From Candidatus Roseilinea mizusawaensis (GTDB lineage: Bacteria; Chloroflexota; Anaerolineae; J036; Brachytrichaceae), in the NCBI GenBank assembly GCA_016841965.1, contig JAEANN010000030.1, positions 62,001 to 126,000 of the forward strand: a DNA stretch of 64,000 nucleotides, read 5' to 3'. Below the pieces are notes generated by a model that saw only the letters and a list, made by a program, of their open reading frames with translations, was not told the DNA's origin and did not search any database. This document shows positions 10,162 through 53,497 of this stretch, one piece after another (the first letter of the stretch is position 1; each line of letters starts with the position of its first letter). Position numbers and translations under genes: made by a program.

Positions 10162-10596
10162 CTATTGCCTGCGCCTGCGCGCACGCCGAGGCGGTTCCGA
10201 ACTGGGTGGGTAGTGTTGAGCATACTGCCGGTTGCGCGCTTCGTTCAGGGCGCTGGTTACGGGAACGCCAGCGCGCAGCAGCAGATATTCTGCCCAGCGC
10301 ACCTGACGGCGCTTGACGCAGAAGTACAAATCTTCACCGGCAATGCCACGATCCCACACCCGCACGCCGTGGCGCCGCAACAGCCGCTCGATATCGATGC
10401 CGCGCCAGGGCGAGTGACGCGAGACCCGAATGGTCGGGGCATTGTAGGCGGTGAGACAGGCCACGAACTCCGACAAGATGCCGGCTACCCCATTGCGGCG
10501 ATGAGCGCCGGCCCAGTCAGCGTTAAGGAAGGTGGACGCAACGCCTTCGATGCGGTCGATCAGGTCGAAATACGCCGGTAGATCGAATAGATTCAT
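10162..10596 (-). CDS. Hypothetical protein behind an SOS-like palindrome
   Basis: This is a 144-residue soluble protein of unknown family, read from the ATG at 10596 (the ORF could extend to 10638, but that part lies over the promoter). The sequence looks coding: FDLPAYFDLIDRIEGV at the start, a central HSPWRGIDIERLLRRHG, then VWDRGIAGEDLYFCV and RRQVRWAEYLLLRAGVPVT. It ends in a basic tail rich in Arg. The middle part (RHGVRVWDR, AEYLLLRAGVPV) loosely resembles short proteins that pair with phage or mobile-element functions, but I do not recognise the family. A promoter and a perfect GAAC-N4-GTTC palindrome lie directly upstream, which suggests DNA-damage control. Confidence 0.7.
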   Translation of the reverse strand: MNLFDLPAYFDLIDRIEGVASTFLNADWAGAHRRNGVAGILSEFVACLTAYNAPTIRVSRHSPWRGIDIERLLRRHGVRVWDRGIAGEDLYFCVKRRQVRWAEYLLLRAGVPVTSALNEARNRQYAQHYPPSSEPPRRARRRRQ

Positions 10597-10611: not shown

Positions 10612-10655
10612 TAGAACTTTTGTTCTATTGTAGCGCATGTCAGACGCCGGGTAAA
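10612..10655 (-). promoter_or_regulatory. Promoter with SOS (LexA/DinR-type) operator
   Basis: On the minus strand TTTACC (10650-10655), a 17-bp spacer and TACAAT (10627-10632) form a promoter. Overlapping and just downstream of the -10 box is the palindrome TAGAAC-TTTT-GTTCTA (10612-10627). The GAAC-N4-GTTC core is the Gram-positive LexA (DinR) box. A repressor bound here would block transcription of the 144-residue gene. The divergent gene at 10702 could share the region. Confidence 0.55.
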
Positions 10656-10701: not shown

Positions 10702-11073
10702 GTGAGACAGGTGACATTAATTGGGCTGATCGTGCTTTTTTATGCCACCATCGTGCGCGTCCAGGAGTGGTTGACCGACAACGGCAGCGCGCTGGATATG
10801 ACCTCGTTTTTGGCCGGTATTGGTGTGACCGTTTTATTCGGCCTGATCTGGTTCAAGATCAATCACTGGTACGGCACGCTATCGAGCATGTCCAAACCGC
10901 AGTCGGTCAGCATGCAGACCCAACAGACGCCGGCGCGGGTCACCATAGGCTCGATTGCAGCGTTTTTCAAGCTGATTGTGTTTTTGTCGCTCATGGTGTT
11001 GCTTGCCGCCGTGCTGCTCCAGGATGAGTTTGGCGATTTGCTCCGTCAACTGTCCGAGGTCTCCCTGCGCTAA
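10702..11073 (+). CDS. Small two-helix membrane protein, hypothetical
   Basis: The 123-residue protein starts at a GTG (10702) inside an AG-rich stretch that may serve as ribosome-binding site. There is a short N-terminal hydrophobic helix (residues 4-20), a second at about 34-52 (FLAGIGVTVLFGLIWF) and a third hydrophobic segment near the C-terminus (about 87-106, FFKLIVFLSLMVLLAAVLL). Between them is a polar loop rich in Ser, Thr and Gln. I recognise no domain. It precedes the SPFH gene by about 200 bp on the same strand, so a shared membrane role is possible but unproven. Confidence 0.65.
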   Translation: MRQVTLIGLIVLFYATIVRVQEWLTDNGSALDMTSFLAGIGVTVLFGLIWFKINHWYGTLSSMSKPQSVSMQTQQTPARVTIGSIAAFFKLIVFLSLMVLLAAVLLQDEFGDLLRQLSEVSLR

Positions 11074-14347: not shown

Positions 14348-14905
14348 TCAAAACTCAATGCCCGGCTGCGCCTTGATGCCCTGATCGCGGAGAGGATGTT
14401 TGACCAGCGTCATCTCGGTCACAAGGTCGGCGTAGTCGATAAGTTCGGGCGGCGCGTCGCGGCCGGTGATGATGAGGTGCAGAGAGGCCGGCTTGTTGGC
14501 GCGCAGCCACTCCACGACCGAACGCGCGTTCAGCCAGCCAAAGCTCATCAGATAAGTGAACTCATCGAGCAAGAAGATATCGTATTGCCCGCTAACGATT
14601 TTGGCCTGCGCCACTTCCCAGGCGTGCAGCGCTTTCGCTTGGGTGATGTCGATGTCGCGGCTGGTCCAGGTGAAGCCGTCTCCCATGGGAATGAGTTCGA
14701 TACCGATCTGTTTTGCGGCGCGAATCTCGCCAAAGTTGGCGTTCTCGTGTTTGAAGAATTGCACGCCGGCGACGCGCATGTTGCGGCCCCAGGCGCGTAG
14801 CAACACACCCAGGGCTGCGGTGGTCTTGCCTTTGCCGTGGCCGGTGTTCACGATCACCAAACCTTTTACCGGCTTGGATGCTGACTTGTCATTTGATTTG
14901 TTCAT
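14348..14905 (-). CDS. cobO: Cob(I)alamin adenosyltransferase, CobA/CobO type
   Basis: The protein has 185 residues from the ATG at 14905, whose ATGA overlaps the stop codon of the upstream methyltransferase-like gene. The longer ORF to 14974 runs inside that gene and is rejected. The P-loop [14 protein letters not shown] is near residue 20 and the C-terminus ends [16 protein letters not shown], diagnostic of the CobA/BtuR family. The enzyme transfers the adenosyl group from ATP to Co(I) corrinoid, giving adenosylcobalamin or adenosylcobinamide. It feeds CobU, CobS and adenosylcobalamin-dependent enzymes. The start is translationally coupled to the upstream gene. Confidence 0.95.
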
Positions 14906-52537: not shown

Positions 52538-53497
52538 CTATTGAGTGCCAGCTTTCACTTTGATCATCTCAGCGGCGATGGCGACGGCGATTTCTTCTGG
52601 AGTGCGCGCGCCGATGTCAAGGCCAATTGGCGCGTGAATGCGCGCCAACTGCGCCTCGGTGCAGCCGGCTTGCCGCAGCCGTTCGAGCCGCGCGGCATGT
52701 GTCTTGCGGCTGCCCAGCGCGCCGATGTAGCGCGCCGGGCTGTTCAGCGCAATCCTCAGCGCCGGATCGTCCACTTTGGGATCGTGCGTCAGAATGGCGA
52801 AGCACGTGGACGTGTCGATCATGTCGGGTGTCAGCACGCGCTGGGGATAGGCGACTAGCAGGGCATCGGCATGGGCAAACCGCTCTGGCGTCGCGAACAT
52901 CTGACGCGGGTCGATGACGGTCACGTGGTAGCCCAGTGTCTGCGCGATGGTGGTGAGCGCAATCGAGATGTGCGTGCCGCCGATGATGTACAGACGGGCC
53001 GGCGGTTCGATGATGTCGAAGAAGGTGGCGCCGGCCGGTGTGTCGATCAGGCCGGCCTTGTGGCTTAGGGTGTGCGCGTCGGAATCGACAATGATGGTTT
53101 TGGCGCCGGCGTTATCGCCCGCAACGATGGTCTGGATGGCAAAGCGCCGGCGTGCGCGAGCGAGTTGGGCAATTTCGTCGAAGCGGGCGTCCAGTCGTTC
53201 GACAAACACCGCGATCTGCCCGCCGCACATCAGGCCAACGCTCCAGGCTGTTTCGTCGGTGATGCCGAAGTGGAGGTGTTGCGGCCGGCCATTCTCGATC
53301 ACCTCCAGGGCGGCCTCGACCACTGCGCCTTCGACACAGCCGCCGCTGACCGAGCCGGCAATTTCGCCGCGCGCGTTGACGGCCATCTTCGCGCCGGCCG
53401 GGCGTGGCGCCGAACCTGTAACGCTAATGACGGTGGCAAGCGCTACGGCGTCGCCACGCGCGCGCCAGGCTTCAATCGTGTCTAGCAGGTCAAGCAT
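52538..53497 (-). CDS. XdhC family molybdenum-cofactor insertion chaperone
   Basis: The 319-residue protein has the XdhC/CoxI N-terminal part (AGSVSGGCVEGAVV motif with conserved Cys) and a Rossmann C-terminal domain (LYIIGGTHISIALTTIAQ, VIDPRQMF). XdhC proteins bind molybdenum cofactor, protect it during sulfuration and hand it to xanthine dehydrogenase-type enzymes. No molybdoenzyme or moa gene is in the window, so its client must be elsewhere. It is followed by a 70-residue membrane protein gene in the same direction upstream. Confidence 0.9.
   Translation of the reverse strand: MLDLLDTIEAWRARGDAVALATVISVTGSAPRPAGAKMAVNARGEIAGSVSGGCVEGAVVEAALEVIENGRPQHLHFGITDETAWSVGLMCGGQIAVFVERLDARFDEIAQLARARRRFAIQTIVAGDNAGAKTIIVDSDAHTLSHKAGLIDTPAGATFFDIIEPPARLYIIGGTHISIALTTIAQTLGYHVTVIDPRQMFATPERFAHADALLVAYPQRVLTPDMIDTSTCFAILTHDPKVDDPALRIALNSPARYIGALGSRKTHAARLERLRQAGCTEAQLARIHAPIGLDIGARTPEEIAVAIAAEMIKVKAGTQ

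Follow-up and report, generated by a model that had tools for sequence, protein, structure and literature searches.

A putative LexA operator at the promoter of an unnamed Chloroflexota gene that is conserved with a divergent membrane-protein gene

A palindrome at the promoter of a gene without a recognised family raises two questions: whether it is an operator for the SOS repressor LexA, and what a protein under such control might do. We addressed both in a 64,000-nucleotide stretch of DNA from Candidatus Roseilinea mizusawaensis (the window; contig JAEANN010000030.1, positions 62,001 to 126,000), part of a 3.86-Mb genome assembled in 59 contigs and 99% complete. The features concerned are the following.

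10162 to 10596, minus strand, stop codon included: gene for a 144-residue protein of an unnamed family, putatively LexA-controlled; it has homologues, residues 52–121 are modelled as beta-alpha-beta-beta-alpha, and no family matches it
10612 to 10627, no strand: putative LexA operator (SOS box) TAGAAC-TTTT-GTTCTA; identical to a 16-mer at recA, with an exact GAACN4GTTC at 38 of 63 family loci
10627 to 10632, minus strand: predicted -10 element TACAAT of the 144-residue gene, sharing the palindrome's end base and belonging to the top-scoring promoter
10650 to 10655, minus strand: predicted -35 element TTTACC of the same top-scoring promoter pair, separated by a 17-bp spacer
10702 to 11073, plus strand: small membrane protein of 123 residues, the conserved partner, identified by conservation, co-occurrence and transmembrane helices

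The initial annotation had placed a perfect palindrome with a GAAC-N4-GTTC core at the -10 element of the 144-residue gene, and both points were confirmed: TAGAACTTTTGTTCTA lies exactly at 10612–10627, and TACAAT overlaps it by one end base. This is the sole TAGAACN4GTTCTA of the window, where about 0.001 is expected per 64 kb from base composition, or 0.07 per 3.86 Mb. The 12-mer core GAACN4GTTC is weak evidence by itself, since it occurs twice in the window and 18 of 100 shuffles reach the same count; the second occurrence, GAACGCGCGTTC at 14520–14531, falls within a long open frame and most likely arose by chance. From the position of the box, LexA bound to it would be expected to block the promoter of the 144-residue gene.

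As the initial annotation had proposed, we scanned the genome for the palindrome ahead of SOS genes. On both strands together there are three TAGAACN4GTTCTA sites, belonging to the 144-residue gene, recA and an FtsK-like gene, and the recA site is the same 16-mer extended by two further paired bases on each side. The gene that could have revealed a differing operator, lexA itself (TIGR00498, 153 bits; Pfam LexA_DNA_bind and Peptidase_S24), carries two boxes of the same GAACN4GTTC type, 50 and 72 nt ahead of its start; the gene lies at C20:111719-112345. Sites with this core are also found before uvrB and before genes for an FtsK/SpoIIIE ATPase and a radical-SAM protein. Judged by its sequence and these counterparts, the palindrome at 10612–10627 is an operator of the genome's own GAAC-N4-GTTC SOS regulon.

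Less stringent forms of the motif gave a mixed collection of sites. The 12-mer occurs 68 times in the genome against 41 for reversed-pattern controls, a count inflated by one tandem array that holds at least 10 of the 68. That array (G000:C36:6485-6640) consists of at least 10 GAACGCnCGTTC palindromes with a 16-bp period, and may be an unrelated repeat. The 14-mer AGAACN4GTTCT occurs seven times against two for the reversed controls; not all seven are established operators, because L005 has its site within a long open frame, that of L001 is some 110 nt ahead of a long frame, and that of L004 stands before a 260-residue frame. The last of these (L004:1558-2340; G000:C20, box at 85206) stands behind TTGACG...AGAACAAATGTTCTATACC and is a candidate SOS gene whose product has no match in Pfam. 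The FtsK/SpoIIIE-type ATPase gene (L006:1519-2574) has two tandem boxes at 1473 and 1502 (G000:C44, about 52625-52666), which suggests a damage-induced DNA translocase, and the radical-SAM protein (L002:245-1519; G000:C18, box at 2571), with an SOS box at its start and a sub-threshold HhH match, is possibly a DNA-lesion repair enzyme. Across 26 genomes, comprising this one and relatives, TAGAACNNNNGTTCT had 86 forward-strand matches against 13 for the control, with zero in two of the 26. The highest number was found in a genome of the same GTDB family (G003; 14 TAGAACN4GTTCT per strand, controls 0 and 4), an excess that points either to an enlarged SOS regulon or to a repeated element bearing the box.

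Next to the box, the start of the 144-residue gene at ATG 10596 is supported by its homologues, since the first four share M1 invariantly, and it leaves the box upstream; other possible starts are ATG 10638, which gives a 158-residue frame that would span the box, and a GTG immediately upstream of ATG 10596. A protein search of 28 genomes of the GTDB family found a homologue in four, all with GAACN4GTTC just upstream and with differing N4. When 396 genomes of the class were searched with a profile built from those homologues, 56 contained the family; with a 58-sequence profile the number was 57, spread over 39 of 222 genera, and none was detected in G027, a genome of the same genus. The 63 family loci considered below are all places from the 56-genome search, with seven duplicate loci excluded from the counts. 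Six named relative loci come from two Thermoflexales (Chloroflexota), two ‘Chloroflexi bacterium’ and two uncultured-bacterium genomes. In a draw of 400 genomes from the phylum the family appeared in two, both within the class; its absence elsewhere is provisional, because 9 candidates were scored per genome and the share of the class in the draw is not given.

The initial annotation had recognised no family for this protein, had called the gene an orphan and had offered a mobile-element function as one option. The first of these was borne out: the window protein matched 0 families in Pfam and NCBIfam at E 1 and had no PHROG match, no family in Pfam, NCBIfam or PHROG was matched by more than two of the 58 members, and comparison of the family profile with PDB sequences gave nothing significant (best E 0.15). 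Matches of any member at E 0.1 covered 8 Pfam and 7 NCBIfam families, SulA not being among them. Since none recurs in more than two of the 58, we set aside as chance the matches to JetD_C (0.0067), YscJ (0.01) and phrog_18422 (0.0015), each from one member, and to WH4_Lhr (0.016) and phrog_2043 (0.039), each from two. DUF2007 (PF09413), suspected from the order of strands and helices, was rejected after hhalign of 58 against 12 sequences gave a probability of 1.2% over 9 columns. The initial annotation missed a divergent membrane-protein gene, described below. The mobile-element option, including prophage cargo, found no support: there was no match in plasmids, one phage (two records) matched only at E 0.5, viral contigs held no relative at the search sensitivity used, and chromosomal neighbours recur across the family loci.

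Structure prediction gave a limited view of the protein. The model, built from 7 sequences (pLDDT 70, pTM 0.58), has two N-terminal helices, a beta-alpha-beta-beta-alpha core and a last helix. Foldseek found nothing in the PDB at E ≤0.001; its best rows, led by an E of 0.036, were a designed ferredoxin fusion and aspartokinase regulatory domains (E 0.04–0.1). VIA-align placed residues 52–121 on ACT/ferredoxin-like chains with Z up to 7.7, which is in the range of common arrangements, and we claim none of the YebC-type, YdjB, aspartokinase, ACT, AcuB or MzrA chains, all of which fall within Z 7–7.7; that other folds do not appear there carries no weight against them. The likeness to ACT/ferredoxin-like domains such as the aspartokinase regulatory domain, AcuB and MzrA thus lies in the modelled core, while the fold scores are weak (Foldseek E ≥0.036, Z ≤7.7); we describe the core as ACT/ferredoxin-like in the model and draw no function from the fold. 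No transmembrane helix is predicted in 56 of the 58 members, and a test for amphipathic helices at the protein ends gave a weak result (mean z 0.7 for the N-terminal end and 0.8 for the C-terminal end).

We examined conservation of the box in a region from 350 nt before to 30 nt after the aligned start (three of the 63 loci have less than 200 nt upstream); in some distant members ‘upstream’ is reckoned from the aligned start because the alignment is partial. An exact GAACN4GTTC was present at 38 of 63 loci; 94 control palindromes of equal GC content were present at 0.32 loci on average and at 2 at most, and the reversed pattern at 1. When up to one mismatch was allowed the number rose to 48 of 63, with 29 control palindromes averaging 6.6 and never exceeding 14. 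There was no exact box at 25 loci, and 15 lacked even a one-mismatch box. As far as such motif counts go, the box is retained upstream of most members of this class-level family.

The relation of box to promoter recurs as well, in more than one form. Among 37 loci with full flanks, an A precedes GAAC in 36, the three bases before it are mostly A, A, T, and the hexamer ending at that T position is TATAAT, TACAAT or TAAAAT in 11. At some other loci a -35 element of the form TTGACA or TTGCNN precedes the box and a -10 follows it, so that the box occupies the spacer. The best sigma-70 score towards the 144-residue gene was on average 2.9 z units above shuffles (33 loci tested), and in the opposite direction, towards the membrane-protein gene, it was at the level of shuffles (mean z 0.28). 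A LexA-blocked promoter serving both genes is therefore not supported.

This divergent gene is itself conserved. Clustering of neighbours by blastp found a divergent membrane gene at 40 of 63 loci, in clusters of 26 and 14 whose profiles align with each other (probability 89%, E 2e-6), and seven more loci gained with a joint HMM bring the number to 47 of 63; a partner-like frame at L028, seen by eye, scored E 0.5 and is excluded from the 47. An exact box is found at 34 of these 47 loci and missing from the other 13, compared with 4 of the 16 loci without a detected partner. A strong match to the partner (E up to 1e-10) occurs in 47 of 396 class genomes; the 144-residue family is present in 45 of these, in one case (G393) with the partner on a contig other than that of the family genes. 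The Fisher p of 1e-45 for this co-occurrence is an overstatement, because the profile was built from the same loci, which makes the presence of the partner there partly circular, and the genomes are related rather than independent. More informative is that only two of 339 genomes free of the 144-residue family have a strong partner match, and these two (G075 and G267) have neither a 144-residue homologue nor a GAACN4GTTC in the flanks of about 4 kb. Relaxing the threshold to E 1e-3 brings the partner to 53 genomes; the family is present in 46 of them and absent from seven. The weak rows (E 1e-5 to 1e-3), excluded from the 47, come from six genomes: four are frames of more than 300 residues, and the remaining ones are in G382 (a 117-residue frame, no 144-residue family) and G287 (which has the family).

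Two transmembrane helices are predicted in 33 of 45 partner proteins, three in 10 and four in 2. The final two helices are joined by a loop that has a mean net charge of +3.5, with flanks of -0.6 and -0.3, and a conserved motif, Pro-Gln ... Thr-x-x-Thr-Pro. Positively charged loops face the cytosol under the positive-inside rule, and because of its charge the loop is predicted to be cytosolic. An AlphaFold model of the window partner is all helical and of low confidence (pLDDT 72, pTM 0.36). The partner has no recognised family in Pfam, NCBIfam or PDB sequences (best PDB E 0.11); matches to DUF7314 (8e-4, below the cut-off, 1 of 45), CcmC (3e-4, far below the cut-off, 1 of 45) and ssl2009 (6.5e-4, 2 of 45), plus others, were set aside as membrane-helix matches.

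A threonyl-tRNA synthetase gene, recognised by motif, with a Pfam match verifying one example (L063), is near 19 of the 63 family loci. At 15 of the 40 clustered loci it lies 3' of the partner on the same strand, within 140 bp in 14 and at 286 bp in one, and this order (e.g. L038, L063) suggests an old, conserved chromosomal position of the pair. The partner is probably made constitutively, since its direction shows no promoter signal at the box and it directly precedes the synthetase gene at those 15 loci. Downstream of the 144-residue gene no neighbour cluster exceeds 7 of 63 loci, so no operon partner emerged on that side, and no division genes were recognised among the neighbour clusters, few of which are annotated.

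We put the probability that the 144-residue gene is regulated by LexA and forms a conserved pair with the membrane-protein gene at roughly 0.88. Induction of the 144-residue protein by DNA damage is very probable, because its control site is shared with repair genes and kept across a large group of Chloroflexota, and the membrane protein travels with it; given the shared site and the conserved pairing, both proteins seem to belong to an unstudied branch of the response to DNA damage. In the mechanism we propose, RecA-stimulated cleavage of LexA would derepress the 144-residue protein, and this soluble, basic protein would then act at the cytoplasmic membrane together with a partner that is probably made constitutively and is predicted to expose a positively charged loop on the cytosolic side. 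The output would be a lineage-specific DNA-damage checkpoint that holds division, envelope growth or segregation until repair. A two-part Chloroflexota checkpoint of this kind, new to description, in which a LexA-controlled soluble effector docks on a constitutive membrane protein and halts division or envelope growth, is a tentative proposal; to us it is the most plausible guess, since SOS effectors already known from particular lineages (YneA, SosA, SulA) often act in this way.

The charge of the protein could also be read differently. The family has a positive mean net charge (+3.6; +10 for the window protein), and a basic stretch, VKRRQ, is kept in the four closest homologues, as might suit an accessory of DNA repair or recombination that binds DNA or a repair enzyme and whose LexA-type box is that of recA, lexA and uvrB. 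Its membrane neighbour would then be linked for non-functional reasons, which sits badly with class-wide co-occurrence and divergent adjacency, and no repair family was matched repeatedly; we regard this reading as doubtful.

We consider it unlikely that the pair is a damage-triggered module for membrane toxicity or dormancy, with the membrane protein as effector and the 144-residue protein as trigger or antidote. TisB and two-gene defence modules are the working analogues here, and in favour are a small protein of two to three membrane helices beside a soluble partner and a patchy distribution (57 of 396 class genomes, with the family not detected in G027 of the same genus). However, searches of phages, plasmids and viral contigs did not turn up the family, a threonyl-tRNA synthetase gene is often close by, and box and promoter serve the soluble protein and not visibly the membrane one. 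If an antidote were needed, the presence of the membrane gene in G075 and G267, where the 144-residue family is missing, would also be awkward. Finally, it is highly improbable that the palindrome arose by chance or is just a generic inverted repeat: a 12-mer core is frequent enough to arise randomly in 64 kb, but the identical recA 16-mer, the matching lexA boxes and a family-wide excess over control palindromes despite varying N4 contradict this.

How does the preferred reading, LexA control of the 144-residue gene within a conserved pair, compare with known systems? Dehalococcoides, a green non-sulfur bacterium, also uses a GAAC-N4-GTTC operator. The motif is mentioned for Bacillus and Mycobacterium in PMC3323433, which has Chloroflexi (Sphaerobacteraceae, a different lineage) among the multi-chromosome groups considered for extending SOS analysis. 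The system described here resembles a Gram-positive-type LexA regulon in its operator core, in the sites at lexA, recA and uvrB and in the placement of the box at a promoter, and differs in that the target is a protein family without a name or known function. Among the matches listed in a literature search on LexA/SOS in Chloroflexota, Anaerolineae and Dehalococcoides, in which subscription journals are sparsely covered, we found none that deals with this gene or with the SOS regulon of the class. A family so specifically tied to a LexA box offers a concrete entry into the DNA-damage response of these bacteria.

SulA is a damage-induced division inhibitor; several such inhibitors are small membrane proteins, and YneA has a membrane segment and a LysM domain. 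Damage-induced division inhibitors are described for YneA (PMC13396833) and SosA (PMC6851548), and DidA (PMC4211646) is described as one that is SOS-independent. With SulA, YneA, SosA and DidA the 144-residue protein would share its small size, its restriction to a lineage and its production after DNA damage. It has no sequence relation to them that we could find and, in contrast to a membrane inhibitor of the YneA/SosA type, the protein under putative LexA control is itself predicted to lack a transmembrane segment, the membrane protein being a separate, divergent neighbour. Such a soluble-plus-membrane pair would widen the range of SOS effectors, unrelated to one another, that are employed by different lineages.
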